From positions 1-46,899 of the IMG/VR virus record IMGVR_UViG_3300020578_000135: a stretch of 46,899 nt of DNA. One strand, written 5' to 3'. The notes beneath the pieces were generated by a model. The model was given only the letters and a program-made list of their open reading frames with translations, searched no databases and was not told the origin of the DNA. Both the position numbers and the translations under genes were made by a program. The stretch comes from a virus. Shown one piece after another: positions 2,694-38,736 of this stretch; within the stretch, counting starts at the first letter, position 1, and each line of letters starts with the position of its first letter.

Positions 2694-3368
2694 ATGTCAA
2701 ATAATCCTGAAGATATTTTTAATCAAAATGATGATGACATTTTCCAAACTAATGAAAATACTTCTCAAAAAATAAGCGAAACAATAGCAAATCGTATTGC
2801 TGGCGAAAATGCTGATTTCAAAATAGATACTTCAGATTTGTTGACAAAAGCAGGTCAAGTTGATTCTAGGGCAAGAATAGTTATTGCTTTGCTAGAAGCT
2901 GCAGGAAACTGGGGTGATACAACTCATAATACTGGTTTGACAAAAGCTATATTTCATGTCTTGGATCAAATGACTGATAGTCGCTTTAGTAAAACCTACG
3001 AATTCTATCGGCTAGAACAGAATATTATTCAGCAACAAGTGTTGTTGTATGTTTTGGAAGAAATGATTGTTGATGATTCTGATGAGTTGAAAGAATTGGT
3101 GTCCGCTCTTAATGTTGATATTACTCCTACTTTTATATTGACTTATATTAAAACTTTTCATAATATTTTAACTCATACGATTAATAAGCATAAAATTGTT
3201 TATCAAATATTGTCTAAAGAATTGGAAATAAAACAAGAAGAAAGTATTATAGACAATAAAAACGAAATAGCTTCTATGTATAGTGTAAAAGCATTTGTGT
3301 ATTCTCATGTGGCTAAATCACTTAACAAAAATTATATTTCTTCTAAACGCAAAGAATATAATTTATGA
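2694..3368 (+). CDS. hypothetical protein, 224 aa
   Basis: TAGGAG precedes the ATG. The N-terminal 35 residues are acidic and Asn/Asp-rich, probably disordered; the rest looks helical, with a hydrophobic core segment near residues 110-165. It ends in a basic tail (SSKRKEYNL). The stop overlaps the start of the putative membrane metalloprotease (ATGA), so the two may act together. Function unknown. Confidence 0.65.
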   Translation: MSNNPEDIFNQNDDDIFQTNENTSQKISETIANRIAGENADFKIDTSDLLTKAGQVDSRARIVIALLEAAGNWGDTTHNTGLTKAIFHVLDQMTDSRFSKTYEFYRLEQNIIQQQVLLYVLEEMIVDDSDELKELVSALNVDITPTFILTYIKTFHNILTHTINKHKIVYQILSKELEIKQEESIIDNKNEIASMYSVKAFVYSHVAKSLNKNYISSKRKEYNL

Positions 3369-3886
3369 TAAATACTTTGAATTTAAAATATGATGATTAT
3401 TGGACAAATTCTTTTTATCCAAAGATTGCTTTATTTGTAGAGTATGAAAAAATAAAGAAAATATATAAATCTAAAATAAAATTAATTTATTCCATACTTA
3501 CTGCTTGTGCCGTTGCTCAGATTAGTTATGCTTTTATAAGCCCTCCTATAGCTATTCTAATGTCTCTAGGCATTATAATTCATGAATTGGGTCATTATAT
3601 GTATGGAAAAGCTTTTAACGCGAAAGCGTCTTATCCATTGTTTATTCCTGTTCCATTTTTATTAATAGGCTTAACTCATATAGCAGACATAGATCCTGCA
3701 AATTTACCAATGATTTCTATGGCGGGTTTGTTGTTGGAATTTATTTATATTTTATTTATGATTTTTTATAATAGTTTTTACAAATTTTATAGCATAAATA
3801 TTTTAATAACATATTATTTAATTTCTTTTATTTTTAACTATTTTGGATTTGACGGTAAAAAATATCGTCAAGCCAAACAAAAGTGA
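3365..3886 (+). CDS. site-2-protease-like (M50) membrane zinc metalloprotease, 173 aa
   Basis: A multi-pass membrane protein with HELGHYMYG near residue 74, the HExxH zinc site of intramembrane M50/S2P proteases, inside a hydrophobic helix. A likely third ligand lies in FGFDGKKY near the C-terminus, matching the family's DG motif. Four to five membrane segments are visible. Known S2Ps cut transmembrane helices of anti-sigma factors or signal peptides. It is short for the family and has no PDZ domain. Its start overlaps the preceding stop. The phage target is unknown, perhaps a host membrane regulator. Confidence 0.7.
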   Translation: MINTLNLKYDDYWTNSFYPKIALFVEYEKIKKIYKSKIKLIYSILTACAVAQISYAFISPPIAILMSLGIIIHELGHYMYGKAFNAKASYPLFIPVPFLLIGLTHIADIDPANLPMISMAGLLLEFIYILFMIFYNSFYKFYSINILITYYLISFIFNYFGFDGKKYRQAKQK

Positions 3887-4062: not shown

Positions 4063-4271
4063 TGAAAAAACAAGAAAATATAAAACAATTTTTAGATGAA
4101 TGTTTTTTTGATATAAACGGATTTTCTTCTTTAAATCCTAATCATTCTGAAGTAATTAAAATTCTTACAAAGATGTTTGTAGGAGTATCAACTGCTATAT
4201 GGTCTTTTATAGAACTTAAAGAACATTTAAAACTCAATAGAAAGTATAAAAATTATGACGGACAATTTTGA
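4062..4271 (+). CDS. hypothetical protein, 69 aa (GTG start)
   Basis: Starts with GTG overlapping the previous stop by one base; AACGGAGAG is the ribosome site. The protein is small and Lys/Phe-rich with one moderately hydrophobic helix (FVGVSTAIWSFIEL). Its 3' end overlaps the next gene by 17 bases. Function unknown. Confidence 0.5.
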   Translation: MKKQENIKQFLDECFFDINGFSSLNPNHSEVIKILTKMFVGVSTAIWSFIELKEHLKLNRKYKNYDGQF

Positions 4272-4653
4272 TTACCAAAACAAACTTACTTCTTTTACAT
4301 TTTCTATGACTGCTGCGGCAAAAACCAAAGAGGAATTAAATAAGAAAGTTAAAATTTTGCAAGAACGGATAGACAAATTGGTTAACGATTTTACAATTGA
4401 TGATTTACCAGTATTGAAACCGATTCTAAGTTTGACTCGATCCAAAACCGATCTAAAGAGATTAGCTAAAGCTGTAGATAGGGTTGCAGATATAGTTGAA
4501 ATTTATGATTCTCTAAATGGTAAATTGAAGATTGTTGAAATGGTTGAAACTGATCCAAATTGGTTTGCTTCTACCTTTGGAGACTTTGAGAAAGATATTG
4601 ATAATGCAATAAACAAAATCATGGCTGTAGATAAGGAGGACCCTAATGATTGA
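4255..4653 (+). CDS. helical hypothetical protein, 132 aa
   Basis: Translation probably re-initiates inside the end of the preceding gene (ATG at 4255). The protein is strongly helical and Lys/Asp-rich, with no Cys and no membrane segment. It overlaps the start of the E2-like gene by 8 bases, so it is the most upstream gene tightly coupled to the ubiquitin-like cassette and may be part of it. I recognise no domain. Confidence 0.6.
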   Translation: MTDNFDYQNKLTSFTFSMTAAAKTKEELNKKVKILQERIDKLVNDFTIDDLPVLKPILSLTRSKTDLKRLAKAVDRVADIVEIYDSLNGKLKIVEMVETDPNWFASTFGDFEKDIDNAINKIMAVDKEDPND

Positions 4654-6613
4654 TTATAGTATTGTAACTAAAGACGAAACTCAAAGCGCTACTATTCGAG
4701 GCACTGTAAAGTCTTTTAATCTTGACCATGTTACCGAAAAAGATTTGACATCTTTTTATGTTAACTTTTCAAAGTATGCATTTATAGACACTGGTTTGTT
4801 GCCGTTAGATGGTACTGGATTATTGGCTTATCGTCAAGCCGGTAATCATTGTCAAGTAGTTGTACAACATGTTCCAGGAGTTTCTAGAATAATATGGGGC
4901 AAATACGAAAATGATACAAGTGCTCAAACATATCATCTTGCGCAGCCTTACAGAATTTATATAGGAGATTTGCTTGATGGTAATTTTTATGGCGCAAGAA
5001 TGTTTTATTCTCCTGTGCCAATTACTTCTCCTAATCAAGTTTTATATCATGTCAATTTGCCAAATATTAATTGTAAAGGTTATCGCGGAAACGCTGTCGG
5101 ATGGGTTTGTTTGTATCATAATGAAAATTGGACTGACATTCCTTTGGGGGAAAAAGTTTTTCGCATTATAGAAAGATGTTCTGGTTCTGAAGCTTACAAT
5201 GACAATAACATGTCAGAAACTGATGGTCCGAGATTTTACAGAGATCATTATTCTGCGAGAGCAATGAATAATGAGTTACTTGCGGATGATTATAAATATT
5301 TATGGGATCCTTTTGAATGGCATAAAAAGACTGATAAAGATGGATTTCAATGGACTCTCAATGAATCTTTGTGGATACCTGTTCTTGTGCAAGATAAGGA
5401 TAATCAATCGCAACATTATCATAATGGAACTCCATTGACATTGGGAATGGCAATTACTGGAGACTATGCCGCATACTATAGTGATAAGAATAAAACAAAA
5501 CCTGTCAATGCAATAGCTAGAAAAGATAAAGAGTTTAAAGATATTAATAGTTTTGCTTTTATTAAAAAAGCTTATGCTGATAGCGCAGTAATAAATAAAT
5601 CTTCAGATTTTTATAATCCTTATGAGAGTGTAGAATCTTTGCGAGAAAACTATTTTTTAACTGCTAAATCTCACAGTAAAGTTGTTGACGCGGAACTTGA
5701 AGAAGACGTACTTGAAATTGAAAATGAATATGTTACCTGCTCTTGTTGTCAACATGATACATCAAAAGATGATGCACATGTAGTTCAAAATTATTATTAT
5801 TGTCCTGATTGTTTTGAAGAAAATTGTGTTTATGTAGCAAGTCGTGATGAACATTATCATACGGATTATGTTACCTACATTGATAGGTACGGCGAATACT
5901 TCCATAATGATGATATTGTAACTTGTTCAAATTGTGATAGTCATTTTCACCTTGACTATGTAGTAAAAGGATATCAACCTTATTGGAATAATGATAAGGA
6001 AGAATACGATCTTTGTACTGAATGCATCAAATCCCCTGAACAACAAATAGGTGCTATACCTTGCGCAAAATGCGATGATTGTTCAACACTTATGCCAATT
6101 TATGAATCTTATCCTAGTTATTACAATCGTTATGCTTACATTGAAAATGATAAACTTGTTGTGAAGTATACTTGTAAAGCTACTTGTTCAAATGGTGTAT
6201 ACGAAGACAAAATAATTTGTCCTTGTGGACAACTTAAAGTAAATGTTGAACATGATGAATATACTCCGAGTTTAGAGAAAATGCACGAACTTGGAATTGT
6301 GCAGCATGTAGACGATACAGTTTGTCTTACAATTTCTGAAGATAAAAATTATTCTTTTTATCCGTTAAAAGAAATACTTGATTATGCTAAGTTACCTTAT
6401 GATTTTGATAAAAATATAATTAATTCTCCTGTATATAACAAAGCATGCAAAGGCTGCACATGCTTTAATTCTGACAATAAACTTGTTTATGATCCTTCAA
6501 AATTTAACATAGAGACTTTAGAAGAATTAAAAATGATTCATATTATTATGAATCACGAACAGGACAACATTCTTATGAATGCAAATATTGTTAAAACATT
6601 CGAATTACCGTAA
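4646..6613 (+). CDS. E2-like (Prok-E2_D / PRTRC protein B type) conjugating protein fused to a cysteine-rich zinc tail, 655 aa
   Basis: First gene of the ubiquitin-like cassette, with AAGGAGG before the ATG. Residues about 65-185 fit the Prok-E2_D pattern: QVVVQHVPGVSRIIWG, a P-x-x-IYI strand at 101-106, MFYSPVPI, then LPN and GWVCLYH, with Cys155 where PRTRC-B proteins carry their conserved Cys. That residue would hold the modifier as a thioester before transfer. Residues 365-530 are a separate zinc region: CxxC pairs at 365/368, 386/389, 427/430, 457/460, with further Cys at 473, 476, 479, 510, 514, 525 and 527, plus a small C606 cluster. The tail could be an E3-like or substrate-binding module. 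The E2 call is pattern-based, and family members are usually about half this length. Confidence 0.65.
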   Translation: MIDYSIVTKDETQSATIRGTVKSFNLDHVTEKDLTSFYVNFSKYAFIDTGLLPLDGTGLLAYRQAGNHCQVVVQHVPGVSRIIWGKYENDTSAQTYHLAQPYRIYIGDLLDGNFYGARMFYSPVPITSPNQVLYHVNLPNINCKGYRGNAVGWVCLYHNENWTDIPLGEKVFRIIERCSGSEAYNDNNMSETDGPRFYRDHYSARAMNNELLADDYKYLWDPFEWHKKTDKDGFQWTLNESLWIPVLVQDKDNQSQHYHNGTPLTLGMAITGDYAAYYSDKNKTKPVNAIARKDKEFKDINSFAFIKKAYADSAVINKSSDFYNPYESVESLRENYFLTAKSHSKVVDAELEEDVLEIENEYVTCSCCQHDTSKDDAHVVQNYYYCPDCFEENCVYVASRDEHYHTDYVTYIDRYGEYFHNDDIVTCSNCDSHFHLDYVVKGYQPYWNNDKEEYDLCTECIKSPEQQIGAIPCAKCDDCSTLMPIYESYPSYYNRYAYIENDKLVVKYTCKATCSNGVYEDKIICPCGQLKVNVEHDEYTPSLEKMHELGIVQHVDDTVCLTISEDKNYSFYPLKEILDYAKLPYDFDKNIINSPVYNKACKGCTCFNSDNKLVYDPSKFNIETLEELKMIHIIMNHEQDNILMNANIVKTFELP

Positions 6614-6631
6614 AGATAAGGAGAATATATT

Positions 6632-8380
6632 ATGACTGAAACACAGAATGGTATAACTATAAATGATTTAGATTTTTTCTATATGCCCAATGGAGTCCCG
6701 TGCTTTTTGGGAAATAAAGAAAATGTTATAAATATTATAGAAAATGATTTGCAATTCACTATATATTATATCTTAACTGACAAATCAACTTTTAAAACAT
6801 ATACAAAAACAGAACCTAGCGGTTATCAACAAATACCTGGTTCATATAGTAGAATTTGGACCAGCGGTAAAACAACTGAAATTGTTGAAGAAGATCGTCA
6901 AATGTGTTTGTTTAAAGTTGTTAAGAATATGATTGGCAGAGTTTGTCAACCTGTTGAAAACGATGCTTTCGGAGAAACTTTTGTTGGTTTGGAAGCAGAA
7001 GCTATATACAACTTGCCTGCAATTCCTAAAACTCTTATTGCTAAACTAGACGAGTTTTTCAGATTGGTTCATGCCCAACATGGCACTGAATCAATTGTTA
7101 TGCTAACTTTTGATACAACAAATATGACATCAGATTCTTGGGGAATCCTAGTTCCTAAACAGGAGAATACTTCTGTTCATTGTAAGTATGATCCGGAATC
7201 TATAGTAGAAATGAAAGAAGAACATTTGTCCATTGTTGGTTCAGTTCATTCTCATCCGGAAATGGCGGCTTATGCTTCTGGTACAGATCATGAGGATCAA
7301 GCTGATTTTGATGGTCTACATATTACTTTTGGCTGGCAAAAGACAAAAGATAATAATGCGACTCAATACCATATTGAGATGCAAATGGCCGGGGTAGCTT
7401 ATACTTTGAAACCTGAAGATGTCTTTGAAATTGAGACTAAAATAAATGATCCAGATCCAGAAGTTGTTAAGTGGACGGAGAATGTCTCAAAAAAAGCCTA
7501 CCCCCCGTATTCGGCTTCGGGGGACACAATCAAGCAGCCGTACCAGCAGCCACATCAACAACCACAAACAACCAGCAATACAACGACGTCTACTACGGAT
7601 ATTGGTCGTAGCACGCGCCAAAATCTTCTTGGCAGTATAACTGATATTCATCTACAGGATGATGTTATTCTGGTATGCGAAGTAGAGCCCTATGCTCAAG
7701 TTGTTCATTGTCCATTGTGTGAATATGAACTCTCTACTGTTGATATAAACAATAGAATGTGTTCTGGGTGTGAAGGTATAATTGCAACACCTTCAGACAA
7801 TGTTCAGGATATAATAGCAAGCGTTAAATATCATGAAGAGTCTAAGTATGCGTGGCTTATGAAAGGTATGAAGCCGCCTAATACACATGAGCTATTTAGT
7901 AAAATATATCTTTATTGTAAAGACAACGATGCAAAAGACATGTTTATGTTGATTTACGATGATGGATTATTGCCACAATATGATAAAAATAATTCTAAAT
8001 CACTTGATCCAGCTGATGATGATGAAGAATTTACTTTATGTTGCAATAAACCATTAAGTGAAATCTACAGTGAAGCTTGCAGTTCTTTATGCAGTGATTG
8101 CGATCGTCCAATAACTCATGAACATTTAGTTCTGTTTCAAGATGCACATATAGAAAAAAACATTACCTTTTATTCATATGAAAGTGAATGTTGGGAATGT
8201 AAAAACTATGAAACAGAACTATGTCCACCGTATCGTAATCTCATCATTGATTGGATTCGAAACGGAGAAGTTCCACAAGAAGAGTGCATAGCTGAAATAT
8301 GCGATTCTTTTCAACCAGTTCATCCATATTCAACCGAAGCTACACAGTCAATAACAAACACTGCTTGGCAGAACGATTAA
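6632..8380 (+). CDS. JAB/JAMM-domain metalloprotease (PRTRC protein A-like) with zinc clusters, 582 aa
   Basis: Residues about 110-270 form a JAB/MPN domain. The signature HSHP at 206-209 is followed at the right distance by S216 and D219 (H-x-H-P-x6-S-x2-D), giving two His and one Asp to bind zinc. Enzymes of this family cut isopeptide bonds or mature ubiquitin-like tails. A Gln/Pro/Thr-rich linker (about 290-325) leads to a zinc-ribbon-like segment (C360, C363, C377, C380) and a second Cys group (C470-C490, C520, C523, C531). The gene has AAGGAG at its start and sits 18 bases after the E2-like gene and 15 before the E1-like gene. The likely job is to process the modifier encoded at 9177 or remove it from targets. 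Confidence 0.82.
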   Translation: MTETQNGITINDLDFFYMPNGVPCFLGNKENVINIIENDLQFTIYYILTDKSTFKTYTKTEPSGYQQIPGSYSRIWTSGKTTEIVEEDRQMCLFKVVKNMIGRVCQPVENDAFGETFVGLEAEAIYNLPAIPKTLIAKLDEFFRLVHAQHGTESIVMLTFDTTNMTSDSWGILVPKQENTSVHCKYDPESIVEMKEEHLSIVGSVHSHPEMAAYASGTDHEDQADFDGLHITFGWQKTKDNNATQYHIEMQMAGVAYTLKPEDVFEIETKINDPDPEVVKWTENVSKKAYPPYSASGDTIKQPYQQPHQQPQTTSNTTTSTTDIGRSTRQNLLGSITDIHLQDDVILVCEVEPYAQVVHCPLCEYELSTVDINNRMCSGCEGIIATPSDNVQDIIASVKYHEESKYAWLMKGMKPPNTHELFSKIYLYCKDNDAKDMFMLIYDDGLLPQYDKNNSKSLDPADDDEEFTLCCNKPLSEIYSEACSSLCSDCDRPITHEHLVLFQDAHIEKNITFYSYESECWECKNYETELCPPYRNLIIDWIRNGEVPQEECIAEICDSFQPVHPYSTEATQSITNTAWQND

Positions 8381-8395
8381 AAGGAGATATTTTGT

Positions 8396-9157
8396 ATGTC
8401 AAATAAACAACATAGATTTATTTTGATCGGAGCAGGCGGTATTGGAACTTGGCTTGCTGCTGGTTTAGTGAGACTTCTAGAATGGAAATATCCTGGATCT
8501 GCTTTGATTATAGTTGATGGAGATACTTTTGAAGAAAAGAATAAAGAACGGCAAGATTTTACTAAAACAGGAAATAAAGCTACAGTAAAAGCTTATGAAT
8601 TAACTTCTCAGTTTAATCAAACAAATATTATTCCTGTTCCAAAGTGGATAGTTGGTGAAAACTTTGAGGGAGTTGATGATGAAAATTCATCAAAGATAAA
8701 AGCTTCACAACTAATAACAGACGGTGATGTAGTATTTGCTGTGGTTGACAATTTTGCTGCTAGAAAAATAATCTTTGATGCTGCTAGTAATCTAAATCAT
8801 ATTGATGTTTTTACTGGCGGTAACGATGACGCTTTATTTGGCTCTATATATCATTATCAAAAACGCGACGGAAAAGAAATAACTGAACATCCGGTTGTAA
8901 CCCATTCTGAATATGAGAATCCGCCAGATAAAAATCCTGGAGAACTTTCTTGTCAAGAAAGATCAAAAATTCAAGGAGGCACTCAACTTCTTGCAACAAA
9001 CATGGCTGTTGCAGCGTTTTTGCTGGCCAGAACCCAAAAGATCATAGTAAACGAAGAATCCCCTACAGAAGCAGAGATATACTTTGATCTTGGTTTAGGT
9101 AGGGCTGAACCATATGATCGAACTGTAAGTAAAACAATGGCAGAAATAGCAAAATAA
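8396..9157 (+). CDS. ThiF/E1-like adenylating enzyme (PRTRC ThiF type), 253 aa
   Basis: Single Rossmann-fold E1 domain. GAGGIG at 12-17 is the nucleotide loop; D41 and D43 with N49, R52 and Q53 match the D-x-D...N-x-x-R-Q ATP site; VVDN at 116-119 is the second conserved acidic patch. C186 in GELSCQER is at the place where PRTRC ThiF proteins have their likely catalytic Cys. Such enzymes activate the C-terminal glycine of a small beta-grasp protein as an adenylate, then a thioester. It lies between the JAB gene and the ubiquitin-like gene, each within 20 bases, with AAGGAGA upstream. No MoeB/ThiF CxxC zinc pairs are visible. Confidence 0.85.
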   Translation: MSNKQHRFILIGAGGIGTWLAAGLVRLLEWKYPGSALIIVDGDTFEEKNKERQDFTKTGNKATVKAYELTSQFNQTNIIPVPKWIVGENFEGVDDENSSKIKASQLITDGDVVFAVVDNFAARKIIFDAASNLNHIDVFTGGNDDALFGSIYHYQKRDGKEITEHPVVTHSEYENPPDKNPGELSCQERSKIQGGTQLLATNMAVAAFLLARTQKIIVNEESPTEAEIYFDLGLGRAEPYDRTVSKTMAEIAK

Positions 9158-9176
9158 AATAACAAGGAGAAAAGAA

Positions 9177-9431
9177 ATGCAAATAAATAACAATTCCACA
9201 GGAAACCCTTCTGGAGGTATTGCGAATGTGCGCTTTGGCGTATATTCTCAAAGTACTCCTGTTGTAGGTAAAACTGTAAAAGAAATACGTGAACAATTTG
9301 GAAAACTTTGGGGTATTCCTTCGGATGCCACTGTTTACAAAGGCAAAGACAAAATGGATGATAACTATGTTGTTCAGGCAAATGACAACTTGGAATTCCA
9401 TCGTCGAGCTGGCGAAAAAGGTAACATCTAA
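9177..9431 (+). CDS. ubiquitin-like modifier (Prok_Ub / PRTRC protein C type), 84 aa
   Basis: Very small protein with AAGGAG upstream, last in the four-gene cassette. Residues 16-76 fit a beta-grasp pattern: strand, TVKEIREQFGKLWG helix, strand (ATVYKG), and closing strand (DNLEFHRRAGEKG). The ending RRAGEKG closely resembles the end of PRTRC protein C, assigned to the Prok_Ub family. Gly82 is followed by two more residues (Asn-Ile), so the mature modifier may end in Gly82 after trimming by the JAB protein. The first 14 residues are Asn/Gly-rich and probably disordered. It is the natural substrate of the E1-like enzyme just upstream. Confidence 0.72.
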   Translation: MQINNNSTGNPSGGIANVRFGVYSQSTPVVGKTVKEIREQFGKLWGIPSDATVYKGKDKMDDNYVVQANDNLEFHRRAGEKGNI

Positions 9432-9445
9432 TTTATTTAAAGTTT

Positions 9446-9481
9446 GTGGGGGAGGCTAGTTCTTGAACTATCCTCCCCCAC
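9446..9481 (+). terminator. strong GC-rich hairpin between modifier and ATPase genes
   Basis: Arms GTGGGGGAGGCTAGTT and its near-perfect complement form a 16-position stem with one C-T mismatch around the tetraloop CTTG. It begins 15 bases after the stop of the ubiquitin-like gene. There is no T run after it, so it may attenuate rather than fully terminate, or set the 3' end of an abundant modifier mRNA. It also argues that the ATPase starts at 9508, not at the TTG inside the loop. Confidence 0.7.
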
Positions 9482-9507: not shown

Positions 9508-11118
9508 ATGCTTCTTTCTCAAATCAAACTTGGCACACCTTCTTTATGGATGAAAACTAAAGATTCATATCGAATGATTGATTATTTATTAGCTTCTAAT
9601 TTGCGTGAATTTTATATGATTCATTCTGATTTTGGTTTTAGTAAATTTGTGGACAAACAATGGTTGCCTATTTTGGTGGATAAATTTGATCCTGAAAATG
9701 GGAGTTCAACTCAAGCGGTTACTTATGATGTAAGCCTTGCTTACAGTTATCTAAAACAAGAGAACCTTTTGCATCGTTCTACTTTTATACATAATGTAGT
9801 AAATAATGTTGACGTGTTTGTTATGCAGTATGGAAATCTTATTGCTTCTTCTTTGAGAAATTACCGTGAATCTTTTTATGAAGATGATGTGTATTCTTTC
9901 CCTTTGCAACACGTTGTATTTTCTCATCAAGATTGTCCTGAAACCCACAAATCTTTATTTACTCATATTGAATCTAGTCCAATGTCATTGGATGAAATTA
10001 AATCTATATTATTTCATTTTAATAATGTTAGCGATGGTATGTTTGTTAGTGAAAAAGATGTGGAAGATATTGCTAAAGCTGGTTCAGGTTTATCGGAGTT
10101 TGAATTTATCAATTTGTCTTTGCTTTCTATCATTGACAAGAAGAAGATAAATCCTGAATATATTTATCAAAGTAAAATGAAGAACATTAAACAAAATGGA
10201 ATTCTAGAAATTATAAAGCCTACTAATTCTTTTGATAAAATTGGTGGACTAGATTTGGCTAAAGATATTGTAGCCAAAATAGTATGGTTATGGAATAATC
10301 CACAAAAAGCAAAAGAATACGGAGTACAACCAATAAGGCGTATGCTTATGGTTGGAGTGCCTGGCACCGGCAAATCAGCAATTTGTGAAGCTACCGCAAA
10401 AGAATTGAATCTAGATTTGGCTCGCACCGGCGTTAGTCAAGTCATGAATTCTTTTGTTGGTCAATCAGAGTCAAACATGCGTGCAGTTTTTCAACAAATT
10501 AAAGTTATGGCACCGCTGTGTGTTTGGATTGACGAGTTTGGTCGCGATCTATCTGGTGGCGCCAGTTCTTCATATGTAGACGGTGGCACTACTGATCGTG
10601 TTCATGGTGAATTTCTAACTGGTCTACAAGAGCTTCCTGAGAATGTTTTCTTAATTTGCGCTGCAAATCAACTTGAAAACCTTCGTCCAGAAATGCTTCG
10701 TGCAGACCGTTTTGATAAAATTATGTTCGTTGGATTACCTTCTTTTGAAGAAAGAAAAGAAATATTTAAAATATATCTTAGTGATATTCAAACTGATTAT
10801 GAATATGATTATGATAAATTATCCGAAGCGACTTGGGGTTACACTGGTGCAGAAATAAAAGCTTTGATTAGAGAAACTAAATTTAATGTAGTTTCTTCTC
10901 AAGTTCGTAGTATAAATGATGAAGATATCATCAATCAATCATATTATATGAGAAATATACTTTGGAATAAAAATAAAGAAATGATTAAAGATTTGTACAA
11001 GTCTGCTCTTCAACAGTGGGACTTTGCATCAAGTTCTCAATTTAATGAAGCAGAATCTATAATTTCTGGAAACTATGGTAAAGTGCGTTCTGTAACAAAA
11101 TCGAAAGGAAATTGGTAA
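9508..11118 (+). CDS. AAA+ ATPase, Ycf46-like, 536 aa
   Basis: Start set at ATG 9508 behind ACGAGG, because the upstream TTG at 9463 lies inside a hairpin. Residues 1-235 are a helical N-domain; 240-460 are one classic AAA module with Walker A GVPGTGKS (283-290), Walker B VWIDEF (D342, E343), sensor N387 and arginine fingers R398/R401 in LRADRFD, then WGYTGAEI. The DGGTTDRV stretch after Walker B is typical of Ycf46-type AAA proteins rather than proteasomal ATPases. The C-terminus (KGNW) lacks an HbYX proteasome-docking tail. It probably unfolds or remodels proteins, perhaps those tagged by the modifier encoded just upstream; that link is inference from position. Confidence 0.85.
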   Translation: MLLSQIKLGTPSLWMKTKDSYRMIDYLLASNLREFYMIHSDFGFSKFVDKQWLPILVDKFDPENGSSTQAVTYDVSLAYSYLKQENLLHRSTFIHNVVNNVDVFVMQYGNLIASSLRNYRESFYEDDVYSFPLQHVVFSHQDCPETHKSLFTHIESSPMSLDEIKSILFHFNNVSDGMFVSEKDVEDIAKAGSGLSEFEFINLSLLSIIDKKKINPEYIYQSKMKNIKQNGILEIIKPTNSFDKIGGLDLAKDIVAKIVWLWNNPQKAKEYGVQPIRRMLMVGVPGTGKSAICEATAKELNLDLARTGVSQVMNSFVGQSESNMRAVFQQIKVMAPLCVWIDEFGRDLSGGASSSYVDGGTTDRVHGEFLTGLQELPENVFLICAANQLENLRPEMLRADRFDKIMFVGLPSFEERKEIFKIYLSDIQTDYEYDYDKLSEATWGYTGAEIKALIRETKFNVVSSQVRSINDEDIINQSYYMRNILWNKNKEMIKDLYKSALQQWDFASSSQFNEAESIISGNYGKVRSVTKSKGNW

Positions 11119-11119
11119 A

Positions 11120-11758
11120 ATGAGTCAACCTAATTTTGACGTAAATGAATTTATAGATAGTGTTAAAGATGATAATCAAGAAAATGACAATGTCATTAGT
11201 CAGCCACCTAAAGAATACAAGACTGAATTGTACAAGAAATGGTTTAAATCAAAATCTCAAAGCGGTTTTTTATCGATAAAACCATGGTTTGAAGGAATGA
11301 AATTTAAAATAGACATTGGTAAAACTTCTTCTGAAGGAAAGTTATTAAGTAGCACAAATGTTTACGTAGACGCTATGGATTTTGCTGCTTATCTCAATGC
11401 TATAGTTTTTGGAACTGCTTCTACAATATATTCAGCCAATGAGAAACTTGGTTTACCGAGCGGTGAATCTTTTGCTTCTTTTGGTGGCGCTGATATTAAT
11501 GGAAAACCAGTCAGTAGAATTTTTAAATCACATTATTGGCAAAATGGTGATTCTTTTGATTCTAATGCTTTTGTTTGGAAATGTGGCCATTTTGGAGCAC
11601 GAAAATCAGAAACGGGTGCTTTTATTCCAGATTATAAGTCTCCGTTATCTGTTGATTTCTTGAAGGTTTCTAAACAGGAAATATGTTCTATATCATATCT
11701 TTTAAATATTTCTTTGTTTGGTTATGTGTCGAACAATCCCAACTGGTATGATCAATAG
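11120..11758 (+). CDS. hypothetical protein, 212 aa
   Basis: Starts one base after the ATPase stop, with AAAGGAAA inside the end of that gene as ribosome site. The first 40 residues are acidic and disordered; residues 50-205 look like a mixed alpha/beta domain rich in aromatic residues (KPWFEGMKFKIDIGK). Tight coupling to the AAA gene suggests an adaptor or partner. The family is not recognised. Confidence 0.65.
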   Translation: MSQPNFDVNEFIDSVKDDNQENDNVISQPPKEYKTELYKKWFKSKSQSGFLSIKPWFEGMKFKIDIGKTSSEGKLLSSTNVYVDAMDFAAYLNAIVFGTASTIYSANEKLGLPSGESFASFGGADINGKPVSRIFKSHYWQNGDSFDSNAFVWKCGHFGARKSETGAFIPDYKSPLSVDFLKVSKQEICSISYLLNISLFGYVSNNPNWYDQ

Positions 11759-11773
11759 TAGGGAGATTTATTA

Positions 11774-12127
11774 ATGAGTGATCAAAATCAAGATTACAGG
11801 GTACAGATAGAATCAATACTGCTTGCTGTTGCAAATAAAATGGAAGAAAGAATGTCTGTATACGAACAGCGTTTAGAACAAATAGAAAAACAGATTGCTA
11901 CTTTGGTTGTAGGATTTGGAGAACAGGCTGTTTTCGTAGAAGCATTGCTTTCTCAAATTGCCTTTGCAGATGAAGGTGGACGAAAGGCATTTCAAGATTC
12001 GCTGCAAGAGTCTAGAAAACAAATGTTGAATATAATGAAAGAAGGGGCTGATGATTTATTGGGCTCAACAGATTCAAACATTGCCCCATCCGTTAAAAGC
12101 GTGGCTGAACAAAAGTTATCTAACTGA
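11774..12127 (+). CDS. coiled-coil protein, 117 aa
   Basis: TAGGGAG precedes the ATG. Residues 20-50 form a clear coiled coil (MEERMSVYEQRLEQIEKQI), followed by an amphipathic helix. There is no Cys and no membrane segment. The 3' end overlaps the next gene by 77 bases in another frame. Probably an oligomeric accessory or scaffold protein; function unknown. Confidence 0.6.
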   Translation: MSDQNQDYRVQIESILLAVANKMEERMSVYEQRLEQIEKQIATLVVGFGEQAVFVEALLSQIAFADEGGRKAFQDSLQESRKQMLNIMKEGADDLLGSTDSNIAPSVKSVAEQKLSN

Positions 12128-12338
12128 AATTTCTAACGGATATTGCGTACTTTTTGTTCATCCTGACACTTATACTTTAATAAGTAAGGATTTTTATTAT
12201 TTGTCAATTGTGTATCCTCTTGTAAAAGAGGTGCATAATGATACAAATTCTTTTTTTATTCTTCCATTTAACGATTTGTTACCATACATAAAAGATGGCG
12301 ACTTAAGTTTTTATAATTTTTCAAAGGAGAGCGTATAA
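12051..12338 (+). CDS. hypothetical protein, 95 aa
   Basis: The first ATG in this frame (12051) has GAAGGGG upstream, but lies 77 bases inside the preceding gene, so a later start is possible. The product is rich in Tyr, Phe and Leu with short beta-like segments and looks like a small globular protein. Its stop overlaps the next ATG (TAATG). Function unknown. Confidence 0.5.
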   Translation: MIYWAQQIQTLPHPLKAWLNKSYLTEISNGYCVLFVHPDTYTLISKDFYYLSIVYPLVKEVHNDTNSFFILPFNDLLPYIKDGDLSFYNFSKESV

Positions 12339-12991
12339 TGACATTTCCATTGCCTGCTTTATCCAAATTTAATAAAAGATATGTAAATGGTCTTTTATCG
12401 AATCTGCGGATACCGTTTATTGCTGAATATTATGCTTATATAGAAACAGATCAACTTTCTGTTTTGCAAAATTTTCACAAATACTTTAGACCTGATTCTA
12501 TTGAACGACAGTCTGATTTGCATTTTTCTTCTTTTACTCAAACAAAGAAAGAAAAAATACAAAATAAAGTTTCTGAAATAGGTACACAAAAAAGATTTAT
12601 ATATCCTTTTAAACTTTCACAATTAATTGAAGACCATTTTTCAATTTATCCATTATCAGAAGTTGATTTTGTATTTAATTATTATATTTCCACAAATAGA
12701 ATAATTCGCGTTAATGATAACAAATCAACTGAATATTTGTTGATTAAACCTAATCCCTTTAATAAGGAAGAATACACTTCTCTAAAACAAGAATATGATT
12801 CTAAATATTCTTTTAAATCTATTCAACTTGCCATAATGAACGTAGCTGATGTTACGGCTAGATACAAAAAGGATTATGAAGCTATGTTGATAAAATTGGA
12901 AAAATTGAATGAAGAAAACATTAGTTTAAAGAACCAAATATGTTCAATGAATGAACAGATTATAAAATCAAACAGTTATACTTGGCAATGA
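12338..12991 (+). CDS. hypothetical protein with C-terminal coiled coil, 217 aa
   Basis: Ribosome site GGAGAG precedes the ATG, which overlaps the previous stop. The N-terminal 140 residues are Lys/Phe/Tyr-rich without a known motif; residues 165-210 form a coiled coil (EAMLIKLEKLNEENISLKNQ). It lies in the operon leading to the two E2-like paralogues. Confidence 0.6.
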   Translation: MTFPLPALSKFNKRYVNGLLSNLRIPFIAEYYAYIETDQLSVLQNFHKYFRPDSIERQSDLHFSSFTQTKKEKIQNKVSEIGTQKRFIYPFKLSQLIEDHFSIYPLSEVDFVFNYYISTNRIIRVNDNKSTEYLLIKPNPFNKEEYTSLKQEYDSKYSFKSIQLAIMNVADVTARYKKDYEAMLIKLEKLNEENISLKNQICSMNEQIIKSNSYTWQ

Positions 12992-13007
12992 AAAGGACCC
13001 TATTTAT

Positions 13008-13943
13008 ATGAACACATTTGCTGTTTCTTTTAATAATTTACAGTATGATATAAATCTTTACTGTGTTAATTCTAATCACGAGGATTATAAAGAAGCTGTT
13101 CAAAAAAATTCTATGTCAAAAATAGATTTTGAATCTTTGGAGAATGGTCTTTTTCTTATTCCTTTGTATAATTTCTCGTTGCCAATTAAAGATGGTGAAC
13201 GTGTAATAAACTGTTATTACAAAATTTCTGATAACTATGAGATTGTTACGTGGAACGATAGTAATTTATCTACTATAATTATAACTGCTTTTAAATTGCA
13301 TGTTAAGTCGTTACTTGTTAACTGTTCTGATGCTTCAAATTCAACAGGTATGAGTTATCTATCTCGTCAATTGTTTCCAACCAATTCTCTTCAAGGTGGT
13401 GTGATATATTCATCTACTTTGAATTTGATTGCAGATGTTGCAAAGAGAAAAGTTCCCCAACCTCTTTGCAGTTTTTATTCTGATCCAGCTATTAAATTTT
13501 ATTCGAAAACTTATCAATACGCAAATTCAACACGTACGCCAAACTGTTCTCACCCGGTACTTGTTAAACACCAAGAAAAACCAATAGGCTGTAGCTATTC
13601 TGACCATACAGAATGCGCTTATTTTCAGCAGAATAAACAATTGATAAGAACAGATTGCTATAATGATAATGTTGAAAGTTCGCAAGTTTCAAAATATGAA
13701 TTATATAAATCTATTTACAATAATTCTAGTGTTGTTTATCTAATTATGATTAATGATAAAATTCATAATCAACTAACGTATTTTTATAATTTCTTCAGTG
13801 AAGTAGATGAATACTATACTGTAGAAGCTATAAAGGAATACGAAAATGTTATTAGGACAACTTCAAATAATGTAAAAGTAGAAAATCTTGTTGATTCTGA
13901 TGATTCTAAGAAAAATAGTTATCTTCTAAACCTTGTTAGTTAG
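13008..13943 (+). CDS. hypothetical protein with Cys-rich C-terminal half, 311 aa
   Basis: AAAAGGA precedes the ATG. The first 130 residues show alternating beta-strand-like segments. Residues 155-225 contain a run of Cys and His (SFYSDP region, NCSHPV, GCSYSDHTECAYF, RTDCYND) that could bind one or two metal ions. It is directly upstream of the E2-like paralogue at 13954 and ends 10 bases before it. A partner of the E2-like proteins is possible from position only. Confidence 0.6.
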   Translation: MNTFAVSFNNLQYDINLYCVNSNHEDYKEAVQKNSMSKIDFESLENGLFLIPLYNFSLPIKDGERVINCYYKISDNYEIVTWNDSNLSTIIITAFKLHVKSLLVNCSDASNSTGMSYLSRQLFPTNSLQGGVIYSSTLNLIADVAKRKVPQPLCSFYSDPAIKFYSKTYQYANSTRTPNCSHPVLVKHQEKPIGCSYSDHTECAYFQQNKQLIRTDCYNDNVESSQVSKYELYKSIYNNSSVVYLIMINDKIHNQLTYFYNFFSEVDEYYTVEAIKEYENVIRTTSNNVKVENLVDSDDSKKNSYLLNLVS

Positions 13944-13953: not shown

Positions 13954-15363
13954 ATGACTATGCCAAAAGTTCCATTTGATTATCAGCATGTTAGCGAAGA
14001 TCTTGCCGAAACTACTTATTTTATAAGTTCTGTTGGACAAGTTCATAAGGATTATGTTCACATTCTAAAACAGGATCCACCAGCTACTGCGATTGGCAAT
14101 GGATTTTTTGATTCTATTCAATCTCAACCGTTTAATTATACTTATATTAGAATGCCAACAAATCTTTTCTTTCATAAAATTCGTACCGAAAACACCAATT
14201 TTATTAATGAAATGGATAATTCTGTTGATGATTTGTTAAAAGTATTTCCGATTGCTACTCGGTATATAAATTCTTCAAATCATATGGTTGTTGAACGCCC
14301 ACCTTTTAAAGCTACTATTCGTTTTACCCCGGCTCGGGCTCAAAAAGTTTTCAACACAAAAACCAATGTAGTTAAAGAAGTTTGGGTTCCTTGGCAAGTA
14401 TATATTGTAAATTTTAATTTGTATCGTAACGCATACAAAATGAAAATGTTTTTTAGAGACGCTCCTTTGTCTTCTGTAAATTCGCGCTTATATGATCCGT
14501 GGACAACAAACCTTTATGCTGATAATGTTGTATGTTTTGGGTCTGACGGTGTTATGGTTGAATCGCAAATCAACAGCATGCCTAGTGATCAAAGAACTTT
14601 GAAGAATGTTTTTGATATTTTGTGTATGTCGTATTGGATGGGTGGTTGGAATGGGGATATCCTTCCTTCTTGGAATTCCTTGCCAACATGGCTTAGAATT
14701 CCTCATGAAACTGATCCTAGAATAACTGAATCTTATTTTAAAAACGAAACTGACTTTAATATCTATAATCAAGCGCTTTCAAAAACTGTGTTTACAAAAC
14801 ACAGACACAAAGAATATAAGCAGTACGTTGAACTTTTGGATATTTGGTCTAATTATTCACTATCTGATGTTTTGCATTTGATGTCAAAGTATAAAAATAA
14901 TTACAATAATAGTGAAAAAACAAATGTTGCTACTTTGAAGAATCAATTAGCAGAATCGGCACAAGAGGACATGTATTATTGCGAATCCAGTCATCCACAT
15001 TATTCAAATAGTGGTTTATTTTTACTTGAAAGAGATCTTGCTTTATTCTTTAAGCATCATGAAGCTAATTGGCGTCCCCATGAAATTTCTGGACAAGTAG
15101 ATATTCTTACTTCTCGGGATCGTAATAATACTGATTATTATTTGGAAGAAACTTTTGAAATACTTCCCGGAATCAAACAACGTTCTTATCAATTTTTGAT
15201 TCAGGAAGAACTTCATGAGCATCTTAGTAAGATAATAGAATACGCAAATAGAAAGTATCCAATTAAATCTAAAAATCAAACAAACTATCAAACTGCCAAT
15301 TTTGCATTTGGTGGATTTGAAGATGTTATTTTTGAAGAAGACAATCCTAACGATCTCTACTAA
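13954..15363 (+). CDS. divergent E2-like (Prok-E2_D-like) protein, 469 aa
   Basis: Start at ATG 13954 (MTMPKVPF) with TTAGGA upstream. Residues 115-200 show the PRTRC-B/Prok-E2_D order: a strand (KATIRFTPARA), VPWQVYIVNF, KMKMFFRDAPL, then TNLYADNVVCFGS with Cys194 at the expected catalytic place. SYWMGGWNGDILPSW after about residue 225 parallels the Trp/Phe segment that follows the Cys in PRTRC-B. It shares this block with the next gene. Residues 240-469 are a long helical tail with no zinc knuckles. No E1 or modifier lies next to it; the cassette 5 kb upstream would supply them. Family call by eye, so uncertain. Confidence 0.5.
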   Translation: MTMPKVPFDYQHVSEDLAETTYFISSVGQVHKDYVHILKQDPPATAIGNGFFDSIQSQPFNYTYIRMPTNLFFHKIRTENTNFINEMDNSVDDLLKVFPIATRYINSSNHMVVERPPFKATIRFTPARAQKVFNTKTNVVKEVWVPWQVYIVNFNLYRNAYKMKMFFRDAPLSSVNSRLYDPWTTNLYADNVVCFGSDGVMVESQINSMPSDQRTLKNVFDILCMSYWMGGWNGDILPSWNSLPTWLRIPHETDPRITESYFKNETDFNIYNQALSKTVFTKHRHKEYKQYVELLDIWSNYSLSDVLHLMSKYKNNYNNSEKTNVATLKNQLAESAQEDMYYCESSHPHYSNSGLFLLERDLALFFKHHEANWRPHEISGQVDILTSRDRNNTDYYLEETFEILPGIKQRSYQFLIQEELHEHLSKIIEYANRKYPIKSKNQTNYQTANFAFGGFEDVIFEEDNPNDLY

Positions 15364-15383: not shown

Positions 15384-16607
15384 ATGGATAGTGTAAGTAA
15401 ATTTACCACTTTTAGTCGTTGGTATAGTTATTTTATAGGTGTAGATGACGCTGGCGCAAAATATTACAAAGATCCTGAGAATAGAGCCAGATTGACTTCT
15501 CAAGAACCAGATATACTTAAAAAACATTCAAGAACAAGAGAATTTAAAAACGCAATTTCTTTTAGCACTGAAGTGCATCATAATGCATCTGTAATATCTA
15601 GTGCAAATACTCCAGTGTATTATTTTAGAAATAAAAAGTGTTTTGATGATTTGAATGAATTGTTCGGATTGGCAAGTTATAAAGCTAGCGGATTTTTACC
15701 TCCTGGTTTAGTAAGCTGTTCAAAGAACGTTGTTATTTTTGAAGTTCCACCTATGAAAAAGGTAGTTTCGTATGTCCCTACTGCCAGAGATAATATTAAT
15801 AGTGATATAGTAAAATTGTATTTAGTTGATAAATCGATTCCGGTTCCTTGGCAGATTTATGTAGCTATTTTTAATAATGATTATCGTTTAATTGATACCT
15901 ATATGTTTTATTCTAAAAATTCTATTATATCATTTGGTGTTGATCAAGATATTTACACTCCGGCACTTCCTAATTTTTATTCAAACGGAATGCTGTGCCG
16001 TCCTTTTTACGGCACGAATGATGACGTGAATAGATATTCTGAAGACTTGTCTGGAGTTATTTCAGCCGCTTATGATTCTGTTTGGAATAGTGGATGGAAT
16101 TCAGATTTGATTGATAGTCTTATAGATGCGATGTGGGTTGGCAAACATACGTATTACAAAGATTTCCAGAATCCTTTACGCGAAAAAGTTCCAGTTTTAT
16201 TTGATAGATATGCAAACGCTATTTCTTGTATTTCTTATGGAAGTAAAAGTAAAGCTTTTTCCATATATGCTGATGCTGTTTCCGAATTTGATTTGGATCA
16301 AATATCCAAAACTTATTTTGGAAATCCCAGCAGATATCAAACTTGGGAAAGAGATGTAGAAGCCGAAAGAGACAGACTAGTAAGTGATTATACAGAATCT
16401 TATAGTTCAGATTCTGACGACTCTGAGCTAGAAGATTATTTGGAACAGAATATGAATGTTAATAGAATGAATGCAAAAACTTTTAGAACTGTAATAAATG
16501 ATATTATTAACTTTAGTGCGAAAGAAAATTTGACTATATTAGGTTCATCTAATATGAAACACCAAGCCGCAGATCATTTTTCTAAAATTATCAATCAAAA
16601 AGCATAG
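15384..16607 (+). CDS. divergent E2-like (Prok-E2_D-like) protein, 407 aa
   Basis: AAAAGGAGG upstream; the ATG lies 21 bases after the previous stop. It is a paralogue of the gene before it: VPWQIYVAIFN (154-164), TYMFYSKNSI, then LPNFYSNGMLC with Cys205 at the position of a catalytic E2 Cys, and SVWNSGWNSDLI further on. NVVIFEVPP (115-123) also matches the first E2-like gene at 4646. The C-terminal 80 residues are acidic (SSDSDDSELEDYLEQN) then helical. If real, the phage has three E2-type proteins for one E1. A hairpin follows the stop. Confidence 0.5.
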   Translation: MDSVSKFTTFSRWYSYFIGVDDAGAKYYKDPENRARLTSQEPDILKKHSRTREFKNAISFSTEVHHNASVISSANTPVYYFRNKKCFDDLNELFGLASYKASGFLPPGLVSCSKNVVIFEVPPMKKVVSYVPTARDNINSDIVKLYLVDKSIPVPWQIYVAIFNNDYRLIDTYMFYSKNSIISFGVDQDIYTPALPNFYSNGMLCRPFYGTNDDVNRYSEDLSGVISAAYDSVWNSGWNSDLIDSLIDAMWVGKHTYYKDFQNPLREKVPVLFDRYANAISCISYGSKSKAFSIYADAVSEFDLDQISKTYFGNPSRYQTWERDVEAERDRLVSDYTESYSSDSDDSELEDYLEQNMNVNRMNAKTFRTVINDIINFSAKENLTILGSSNMKHQAADHFSKIINQKA

Positions 16608-20117: not shown

Positions 20118-20133
20118 TATAATATATAGTATA
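20118..20133 (+). promoter_or_regulatory. putative -10 box giving a leaderless or near-leaderless start
   Basis: TATAAT at 20118-20123 lies 9 bases before the ATG at 20133, and no ribosome site is present. A transcript starting 7-9 bases after the box would begin at or next to the ATG. Leaderless mRNAs are common in actinobacteria. A similar arrangement (TATAAT, TATAGT, ATG) occurs at 28486-28499 on the other strand. No good -35 box is seen. Confidence 0.5.
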
Positions 20134-20762
20134 TGACTACAATAGTTGCTTATCAAGGTCTTAACTTTGCCGTTGTTGGGCACGACTCAAGAATATCATC
20201 CGTAGATGACACTGGGTTTACTTCCCAAATATTAACTTTAGGAGATAACTCGGCTAAAGTAATGGTAAATGGAAAGTATTTGCTTGGGGCAGCAGGTGAC
20301 GTAAGAGCAATCAATATTTTGCATCATTCTTTTACGCCTCCTCCTCCCACCACAAATATGGTTGGTATGAAGTTAGATAAATTTTTTACTAATACTTTTA
20401 TTCCAGCTTTGAGAGAATGTTTTGAAAAGCAAGGTTATGCTGTTCCAGATACCGATGATAAAAAACATATAGCAGAGCAGGGGTCAACAATACTCGTTGT
20501 TGTGAATGGAGTAATCTATGTTGTTGACGAGGATTACTCATGGGCTTCAGATATAAATGGTTTATACGCGCTAGGTAGTGGATCAAGCTACGCGTTAGGC
20601 GCTATGCATATGAAAACTTCCGGTAGGAAAAAGAGCTTGGGTATTCATACTGCTAAAACCTTAGTTTTGAGTGCCCTATCAGTTGCATCTAAATTTGATC
20701 CTCATACAGGACCGCCTTTTAAAACTGTTGTTCAAGATTTTACTAAAAAAATTAAAAAATGA
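20133..20762 (+). CDS. proteasome beta / HslV-like Ntn-hydrolase, 209 aa
   Basis: N-terminus MTTIVAYQG places Thr2 next to the initiator Met, as in HslV and mature proteasome beta chains, where that Thr is the nucleophile. Asp18 (GHDSR), Lys42 (NSAKVMVN), GAAGD at 53-57 and YALGSGSSYALGAM at 145-158 match the conserved catalytic and structural motifs. Length suits an HslV/Anbu-type subunit. It would assemble into a barrel that cuts unfolded proteins delivered by an ATPase. There is no propeptide beyond Met1. It is about 10 kb from the ubiquitin-like cassette and AAA ATPase, so a link is inference. Phage prohead proteases are a different fold. Confidence 0.75.
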   Translation: MTTIVAYQGLNFAVVGHDSRISSVDDTGFTSQILTLGDNSAKVMVNGKYLLGAAGDVRAINILHHSFTPPPPTTNMVGMKLDKFFTNTFIPALRECFEKQGYAVPDTDDKKHIAEQGSTILVVVNGVIYVVDEDYSWASDINGLYALGSGSSYALGAMHMKTSGRKKSLGIHTAKTLVLSALSVASKFDPHTGPPFKTVVQDFTKKIKK

Positions 20763-25948: not shown

Positions 25949-26923
25949 TTATTTACCATATAACTTTTTAACAAGGGGAGACTCCCAAACAGTAGTATTT
26001 TTATATACTCTTTTTACTTTTAAAGGATCATTATGAAAGTGCAATGTATTATCTTCTCTAACTAAATCTTTTGCCAATTGTTCCCATTTTTCTTTGCCAA
26101 AAAGTTTAACTCCACTTGACCATATTTCTGTTTCTTCCACCTCGTGTTTAATATAACATCTGCAGAAGTACTTTTCGCCATTTTGTACAACGCCAACACC
26201 ATGAAAATATGGATGAGTACCCGGAAACAATGGAGACCCAGAAGGAAAAACGACTATATCACCGGCTTTTGGCTTATATGTTATGAGATCTCCATCAATA
26301 AAAAATCTAAGTTCACCACCATCATAGTCATCGTTAATATAAGTTGTACATGTTATGAAAAATTTATCACTAGGCCAATACCATTCTGATATATTAAAAT
26401 CAGTATGATAGTTCATAGATAAATCTCTAATACTTTTGCCATTGCTTTTGCACTCATCGCTTGGCTCAACATGATGGACGCCAATTACAACATCCGAAAT
26501 ATACTTTGCGTAGTTTGGGTTGGTAATGTAAGAATTTTTTGGTAATGTTATTTTATTTTTTTCCACGTAACTAGTACATGCAATAGTCACTGCTGTTCTT
26601 ATTGCATTGCTTGCATGTATCTCTTCATTGAAAATGATTTCTTCTTGATAACGTAGAACATCAGTCAAATCAGGATTAAGATGATTGGTCACCCTATCCT
26701 GAACCGCTAGGTGCATGGGCTTTTCGTCCATATAGCTACCAAAAACAAACCAGTCTTTCCACTTGTCAAAAAAGTATTTACCATTTTGTTCTTCATTTAC
26801 TTTTCTTGATTCAGATTCCCTTAAAGTGTCATATATCCTATCAAGTTGATCAAGCATATTTGAATAAACAAAAATTAATGGATAAATTTCTTTGTAGTCT
26901 AAATTTAGATTAGTTATTTTCAT
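25949..26923 (-). CDS. 2OG-Fe(II) oxygenase (prolyl 4-hydroxylase-like), 324 aa
   Basis: The C-terminal half is a double-stranded beta-helix oxygenase: YHTDFN gives the H-x-D iron ligands, TTYINDDYDGGELRFF and KPKAGDIVVFPSGSPLFPG follow the P4H pattern, and HGVGVVQNGEKYFCRC supplies the distal His and the Arg for 2-oxoglutarate. The first 150 residues are a separate helical part. Such enzymes hydroxylate proteins or small molecules using oxygen and 2-oxoglutarate. ATG overlaps the stop of the next upstream oxygenase (ATGA), so the two are co-translated. The substrate is unknown. Confidence 0.85.
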   Translation of the reverse strand: MKITNLNLDYKEIYPLIFVYSNMLDQLDRIYDTLRESESRKVNEEQNGKYFFDKWKDWFVFGSYMDEKPMHLAVQDRVTNHLNPDLTDVLRYQEEIIFNEEIHASNAIRTAVTIACTSYVEKNKITLPKNSYITNPNYAKYISDVVIGVHHVEPSDECKSNGKSIRDLSMNYHTDFNISEWYWPSDKFFITCTTYINDDYDGGELRFFIDGDLITYKPKAGDIVVFPSGSPLFPGTHPYFHGVGVVQNGEKYFCRCYIKHEVEETEIWSSGVKLFGKEKWEQLAKDLVREDNTLHFHNDPLKVKRVYKNTTVWESPLVKKLYGK

Positions 26924-38088: not shown

Positions 38089-38736
38089 CTAGTAGCCAGC
38101 AAAGTCCGCTGGGTCCTCAAAGGGTTGATACGTATCGCACTTGTATTTGGGCAAAAGTTCTAACATTCGCCCTCTCCATGGGAGCCTTATTTCGTCTTCA
38201 TCCATCCATCTTGGTCCTTTTGTGTGATACCAGTGGTCTGGCTCAGTGAAATGTATAAAACACATTTCGAGGGAACTGAAGAAAGAGTTATTTGGAAATT
38301 TTGGTCGCCAGTGCATTTGCTCACTACCGAGATACAAAAGCGCATCACCGTTCTTCATTAGGTATGGCTTGCCTTCTACATAAATCTCCCAATCGATATT
38401 GCCAGCCAATTGTAAATCTATTGTGTATGTGCATGCGTTTATGTCTATGTGTGGGGGTATGTTTGGGGTTCCAAACATTGGGCAATACTTTGCCCACTTC
38501 CAATAAGACGGTATTGCGGTTTCGCCAAAATATGTTTTTGCGCAGCCGTATATTATTTCATAAAACTTGTCATTGACAGTTTTATTAACAATTGAGTTAA
38601 TCATTGGAATATCGTTTGTTATTCGTCCCCAGCCAGTGCTTTTGACAACCTTTTGACCAAACTGCTGATTTGACAATTCCAAACGTATTAATTCATCGGG
38701 AATCAACTGTTGAATCAGAATTGGAAATGTTTTCAT
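38089..38736 (-). CDS. 2OG-Fe(II) oxygenase-like protein, 215 aa
   Basis: PPHIDINACTYTIDLQLAG provides the H-x-D pair and the following strand; KNGDALLYLGSEQMHWRPKF carries the distal His and an Arg. The overall size and order fit a small double-stranded beta-helix oxygenase. It starts within ATGA of the next oxygenase, so both are co-translated. The substrate is unknown. Confidence 0.7.
   Translation of the reverse strand: MKTFPILIQQLIPDELIRLELSNQQFGQKVVKSTGWGRITNDIPMINSIVNKTVNDKFYEIIYGCAKTYFGETAIPSYWKWAKYCPMFGTPNIPPHIDINACTYTIDLQLAGNIDWEIYVEGKPYLMKNGDALLYLGSEQMHWRPKFPNNSFFSSLEMCFIHFTEPDHWYHTKGPRWMDEDEIRLPWRGRMLELLPKYKCDTYQPFEDPADFAGY

Follow-up and report, generated by a model that had tools for sequence, protein, structure and literature searches.

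The IMG/VR record IMGVR_UViG_3300020578_000135 is a viral sequence of 46,899 bases, classed as linear and probably a fragment, that was analyzed over its whole length (the window). Its plus strand carries four open reading frames (ORFs) at positions 4646-6613, 6632-8380, 8396-9157, and 9177-9431, with intergenic gaps of 18, 15, and 19 bases, which in order are predicted to encode an E2-like protein, a JAMM/JAB isopeptidase, a ThiF-type E1, and a ubiquitin-like modifier (Ubl, also called the tag here). An initial annotation, made from the letters of the sequence, had given exactly these coordinates and had read the block as a ubiquitin-like conjugation cassette of the PRTRC type, a system known from plasmids. 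All of our evidence for a phage tagging pathway is computational.

The E1, a protein of 253 residues, contains the GAGGIG and D-x-D motifs and a putative catalytic cysteine, Cys186 (codon 8951-8953), within the stretch PGELSCQ. It matches the Pfam ThiF model above the gathering score (E=1.8e-12); ThiF/MoeB models match at E 1e-6 or weaker, and the E1-E2 models of PADLOC match weakly. Its best NCBIfam match is PRTRC_ThiF, at 32.2 bits against a cut-off of 144.75, and profile-profile comparison with the same family gives E=8e-22. The JAMM protein, which has a cysteine-rich tail, displays the HxHx7SxxD signature as HSHP-x6-S-G-T-D (His206, His208, and Asp219) and matches Pfam Prok-JAB above the gathering score (E=1.2e-6). 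In this case the best NCBIfam match is PRTRC_A, at 23.5 bits against a cut-off of 101.8, with a profile-profile E of 1e-9. Unrelated control pairs in the profile-profile comparisons scored E 0.09 or worse.

The tag is 84 residues long and ends RRAGEKG-NI, so that Gly82 (codon 9420-9422) is followed by Asn-Ile; this terminus and the motifs of the two enzymes are as the initial annotation had described them. Direct hidden Markov model searches of Pfam, NCBIfam, PHROGs, and PADLOC gave no useful match to either the tag or the 655-residue product of the first gene, and none of the tag, E1, and E2 had a relevant match in sequence-profile searches of the PDB. An AlphaFold2 model of the tag, built with 29 homologues, has a β-grasp arrangement in which the core reaches a predicted local distance difference test score of about 90, with strands at residues 16-20 and 23-27, a helix at 34-45, and strands at 52-55, 58-60, and 71-75. 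Within the PDB, Foldseek matches this model best to ubiquitin variants, NEDD8, and Bacteroides Ubb (probability 1.00, template modeling score about 0.6, E about 1e-3). With VIA, TtuB, ubiquitins, and Raf RBDs are tied at Z 8.3-9.0 with TtuB on top. The nearest viral models are mostly the ubiquitins of giant viruses rather than phage proteins. The 84-residue protein is thus predicted to be a ubiquitin-like β-grasp.

E2-like proteins and their C-terminal tips

The first gene of the block (4646-6613) encodes a 655-residue protein made up of a Prok-E2_D/PRTRC_B-related domain, over roughly residues 1-300, and a zinc-rich C-terminal tail. Early, shallow profile comparisons were weak for both the E2 and the Ubl. 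Deeper alignments settled the E2, the 35-sequence family of which matches PRTRC_B at E=7e-5, and gave a marginal match of the Ubl to PRTRC_C. Cys155 (codon 5108-5110) and Cys143 are invariant in 35 homologues, and the motif YHVNLPNINCKGYRGNxVGWICLYH resembles the HPN...ICL stretch of E2 enzymes. Sequence profiles make the protein a divergent relative of Prok-E2_D/PRTRC_B; in VIA, part of its zinc-rich tail (residues 351-394) is matched weakly by LIM and RBR domains.

Two further E2-like proteins are encoded on the plus strand downstream, at 13954-15363 and 15384-16607. They are paralogues of one another (profile-profile E=5e-38), and both match PRTRC_B more strongly than the first E2 does, at E=5.6e-6 and E=9.3e-7, respectively; against the first E2 itself the values are 6.8e-6 and 4e-8. 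Each of the two families has a single invariant cysteine within an LPNxY..G.xC-like stretch, found in 30/30 sequences of the first (codon 14533-14535 in the window) and 28/28 of the second (codon 15996-15998). A homologue of the former in the related locus L075 matches Pfam Prok-E2_D at E=0.0076, below the cut-off.

Many of the related E2s share a C-terminal tip. The tip of the E. coli single-stranded DNA-binding protein (SSB) is DDDIPF, and a Pro-Phe (PF) terminus is found in 20 of 29 non-redundant first E2s, mostly after acidic residues (DDEEPF, EDDEGPF). Across 20 loci, PF is the terminus of 19 of the 444 plus-strand ORFs, and 17 of the 19 are E2-family proteins (Fisher p=2e-15, with related sequences counted as independent). 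Among the 17 are two downstream paralogues from close relatives (L057 and L003) in which the first E2 has no such tip. The phage-encoded SSB, for its part, ends in VPDxF or similar. In bacteria, the SSB tip (SSB-Ct) is the docking site for many genome-maintenance proteins (PMC10164576).

Conservation and relation to known systems

The order E2-JAMM-E1-Ubl is kept at 43 loci on 42 IMG/VR contigs of 14-268 kb and on one GTDB contig; some contigs end inside the block, and order was judged where a contig extends far enough. The block recurs far beyond chance. E1s of the relatives are 55-81% identical to that of the window, and all 44 E1s have the PGExSC motif. HSHP..SGxD is present in 41 of 42 JAMM proteins, the single miss (L002) being truncated. 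All 44 tags have the C-terminus EFHR[R/K]xGEKG followed by zero to two more residues, so the glycine end is invariant in the family and the extension is not fixed. Between the tag genes of the window and L057, differences at codon positions 1, 2, and 3 amount to 13%, 9%, and 66%. Such an excess at third positions indicates real genes under purifying selection, most clearly for the tag.

In a tree with 16 PRTRC-type E1s, the phage E1s form a single clade apart from them (support 100/100), the stem of which measures 4.4 changes per site; with branches this long, the placement among the PRTRC-type E1s is unsure. One scan of GTDB found no bacterial relatives of the E1 except on a phage-like contig. 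The GTDB locus noted above (L082, PXAT01000157.1) carries a divergent cassette with an E1 56% identical to that of the window, a JAMM separate from its zinc tail, and a ParB-like ORF recognized by eye. The contig is binned in an Ectothiorhodospiraceae metagenome-assembled genome and is probably either a phage of another host or misbinned. On another contig, IMGVR_UViG_3300042868_009074 (268 kb), there are two different copies of the cassette (L007 and L065) together with two HslV-like genes, which is either a duplication or an assembly join.

The closest known system is the PRTRC plasmid cassette (TIGR03734-TIGR03742), which corresponds in composition to class 6d of Iyer et al. 2006 (PMC1779556). 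By sequence profile or predicted fold, both have a Ubl, an E2_D-type E2, a JAMM, and a ThiF E1, with the gene order B-A-ThiF, and they share the HxHx7SxxD motif of the JAMM, the SC catalytic region of the E1, and a tag ending in GxKG (EbN1 PRTRC_C ends FRRAAGTKG). They differ in that the phage tag gene follows the E1 gene, the phage E1 and JAMM fall far below the family cut-offs, and the phage system is actinophage-borne, with two extra E2 paralogues, zinc tails, SSB-like tips, and an E1 in its own deep clade. Models for PRTRC ParB, C (TIGR03738), D, E, and F had no match in the window, the tag included, or in 11 further phage records, which include fragments; the EbN1 PRTRC plasmid served as a positive control for D and E, and F had no positive control. 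Because these models are unmatched and the E1 lies in its own deep clade, the block is not a PRTRC cassette, although its E2, JAMM, and E1 have a common ancestry with PRTRC B, A, and ThiF and are encoded in the same order. The initial annotation was right that D, E, and F are not to be seen, and right about the counterparts of B, A, and ThiF, while its equation of the tag with PRTRC C has a marginal match behind it. The description of the pathway as stripped-down does not hold, given the three E2-like proteins of the phage block and its own conserved partners. Elsewhere, PRTRC-like systems adjoin replication and repair genes: a human-gut 'phage' scaffold (L045, MT835919) has JAB, ThiF, and a PRTRC_B-like E2 at 7-1682 and 6445-7140 near an apparent β-clamp ORF, and a Sutcliffiella plasmid (L053) has Rad52, dnaN, E2_D, JAB, and ThiF clustered.

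The four roles of Ubl, E2, JAMM, and E1 are also those of Bil (BilABCD), in which the E1 is a pseudodimer of two domains, BilA contains a pair of Ubl domains, and BilB has a CEHH motif (PMC11354881). In the phage, by contrast, the E1 has one domain and there is a single Ubl; no CEHH-like motif is evident, and PADLOC returned no Bil match. In type II CBASS, Cap2 is an E2-E1 fusion, whereas the phage E1 and E2 are separate ORFs and are phage-borne rather than part of a host immune operon. E1/E2/JAB-like chemistry, known in bacteria from type II CBASS (Cap2/Cap3) and the Bub operons (PMC10097602, PMC13373217), would otherwise be shared by the phage block. No phage-borne E1-E2-Ubl-JAMM set turned up in a literature search, which was not exhaustive, and the terms E1-like, JAB, proteasome, and Ub-like were unmatched in the portion of text searched from a survey of 224 jumbo phages (PMC7824862).

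Neighboring genes and hosts

Several features went beyond the initial annotation: the two downstream E2-like genes, a hairpin after the tag gene, two upstream proteins of which one is metalloprotease-like and the other small, and, 11 kb downstream, an HslV-like protease. The upstream side holds a conserved 224-residue protein, a membrane metalloprotease-like protein, and a 132-residue protein, and conserved upstream proteins do not match the PRTRC E or F profiles. The metalloprotease-like protein (3365-3886, plus strand), a possible partner of the cassette, has HELGH and a DG motif in the window and, in an alignment of 21 homologues, HExGH and a C-terminal DG motif; its match to Pfam M50 (E=0.037) is below the cut-off. 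Directly 5' of the first E2, and found there in nearly all loci (19/20 and 23/26, L082 included), is the gene for the 132-residue protein (4255-4653, plus strand).

Downstream, a terminator-like, GC-rich hairpin (9446-9481, plus strand) would close the transcription unit that ends with the tag gene. It is present in nearly all loci, conserved in position and variable in sequence, and most copies have a T-run; that of the window has no clear one. The next gene, which follows the tag gene at almost every locus, encodes an AAA ATPase (9508-11118, plus strand; Pfam AAA 3.6e-25) that is probably a separate transcription unit because of the hairpin. Related AAA proteins are found in Rhodobacter, Pseudomonas, and Mycobacterium phages that have no cassette, and for these two reasons a place for the ATPase in the cassette operon was considered and dropped, its link to the cassette being uncertain. 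The same ORF matches anti-phage IetA/IteA models (PADLOC 6e-32; NCBIfam IteA 90 bits, below the cut-off). In the most divergent phage clade, L075 and L078, about 2.3 kb of additional genes lie between the Ubl and AAA genes (about 11100-13310), including an ORF of 347 residues in L075.

A further protein of uncertain link to the cassette is encoded at 20133-20762 (plus strand). This 209-residue protein matches PHROG 1040 (E=6e-23) and has a threonine after the initial methionine (MTTI start), Asp17 (DSR), a lysine, and a GSG loop, so that its sequence and family profile identify it as an Ntn hydrolase of the HslV/proteasome-β family. It is of the same kind as the phage homologues PPH and AAH (PMC8665760); PPH is about 140 residues long and the phage peptidase, near a Ubl cassette, about 209, and AAH was not found in actinophages in that study, whereas the window-type peptidase does occur in them. 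In many relatives the gene lies roughly 11-13 kb downstream of the cassette, and 29 of 41 distinct related records have it. Two cassette-bearing clades, with contigs of 180-194 kb among them, lack it. Homologues are also found in the cultured Actinomycetia phage DSL-LC01 (52% identical), the annotation of which shows no cassette, and in two Caudovirales records (ct2KA10, about 30% identical).

The family is one of large freshwater viruses, probably of actinobacteria. WhiB, an actinophage marker (PMC10202952), is encoded in 17 of the 19 records searched, and it is these genes that point to actinobacterial hosts; the window, a fragment, has no WhiB gene. Annotated neighbors of the cassette include SSB- and UDG-family genes, not tail genes. 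Elsewhere in the window, at 25949-27561 and 38089-42789 (minus strand), several ORFs resemble 2-oxoglutarate-dependent hydroxylases by eye, and an ORF at 40704-42167 is tryptophan-halogenase-like, also by eye; DSL-LC01 has an annotated tryptophan halogenase.

A proposed phage-run conjugation pathway and its rivals

We read the block, with a probability of about 80%, as a phage-run pathway for ubiquitin-like protein conjugation and removal. The ThiF and JAB matches, the E2 profile comparison, the tag model, and the conservation of the block all favor the four-role cassette that had first been proposed. Computation shows the genes with their conservation and catalytic residues, the predicted β-grasp of the tag, and the E1, JAMM, and E2 homology, whereas we infer each chemical step, the targets, and when in infection the pathway acts. 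Tagging of host or virion proteins, which the initial annotation had suggested, is a possibility. The JAMM would first trim the modifier to Gly82, removing two extra residues in the window and none in most relatives. The E1 would then adenylate Gly82 and form a thioester with it on Cys186, after which up to three E2-like proteins would accept the modifier, at Cys155 or at the invariant cysteine of the paralogues, and transfer it to lysines of the targets. In the first E2, the zinc-rich tail perhaps substitutes for a ligase, and the JAMM would later cleave the modifier from its targets. The presence of several E2s suggests several targets. More tentatively, because the acidic-Pro-Phe tip of the first E2 in most relatives resembles the bacterial SSB tip, such an E2 may dock on the partner proteins of SSB, and the targets may lie in host DNA replication, repair, or recombination; this part is less likely than not.

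A number of results weigh against this reading. The match between the tag and PRTRC_C is marginal (profile-profile E=0.029), and the tag terminates in KG rather than GG. For the E2, the structure searches did not confirm the fold: Foldseek found no match with the model of the whole 655-residue protein, and VIA aligned residues 40-240 with Ubc13 and UBE2L3 weakly, over 120-135 residues at Z 3.1-3.4. The histidine used by classical or PRTRC E2s is not evident in the phage E2s. Neither a dedicated E3 gene nor a known target was identified. Finally, the three E2s of the window have no PF tip, so that the tip bears on the family and not on the window genome.

Alternatively, tagging may serve degradation, with tagged proteins unfolded by the AAA ATPase and destroyed by the HslV-like protease, thereby supplying amino acids or removing defense proteins. 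The nearly constant position of the AAA gene and the proteasome-type catalytic residues of the peptidase favor this route, but a hairpin separates the ATPase from the tag, both genes are found in phages that lack the cassette, and no HbYX proteasome-docking tail is present among the AAA C-termini listed. We consider it unlikely; the patchy distribution of the HslV-like gene and its occurrence in DSL-LC01 leave the proteasome link as no more than a rival reading. Its most elaborate form, a ubiquitin-proteasome-like program in which three E2s, one of them mimicking SSB in most relatives, tag host replication and repair proteins for degradation by the AAA and HslV-like proteins, is decidedly unlikely.

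Phages often carry anti-phage genes, and the cassette could be a weapon against other phages or a means of superinfection exclusion, tagging the virion proteins of competitors much as Bil does. Bil conjugates its Ubl and disturbs phage assembly, according to work cited in PMC13373217 and PMC12660748. Sporadic occurrence is expected of defense genes, however, and the cassette is kept family-wide at one fixed place; with an E1 and tag that have none of the Bil features, this too seems an unlikely function. More improbable again is a sulfur-carrier pathway like those of ThiS, MoaD, or TtuB, in which the E1 would adenylate the small protein to give a thiocarboxylate for cofactor, cysteine, or tRNA modification. 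It draws on TtuB as the top VIA match, on the ThiF/MoeB matches of the E1, and on the co-occurrence of JAB proteins with sulfur carriers (PMC1779556), but it offers no role for three conserved E2-like proteins, no sulfurtransferase was noted beside the cassette, and the E1 is nearest to PRTRC_ThiF. A virion-assembly module like lambda TAPI/TAPK is scarcely credible, for while Ub-like and JAB pairs are known in phage tail assembly clusters (PMC1779556), E1 and E2 genes are present here and the annotated neighbors are not tail genes.

A complete ubiquitin-like tagging pathway appears not to have been described previously in viruses of bacteria. Bacterial Ubl conjugation has so far been investigated mainly as a host weapon against phages, as in Bil and CBASS, or encountered in uncharacterized plasmid cassettes such as PRTRC. 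A conserved, complete set in large phages would reverse these roles, with the virus operating the pathway. It would also give a route to PRTRC-like function, as in an infection events can be followed over a time course and likely targets are at hand, and one docking hypothesis is directly testable through the SSB-like tip. In this way the phage pathway could show how such viruses rewire the proteins of their hosts.

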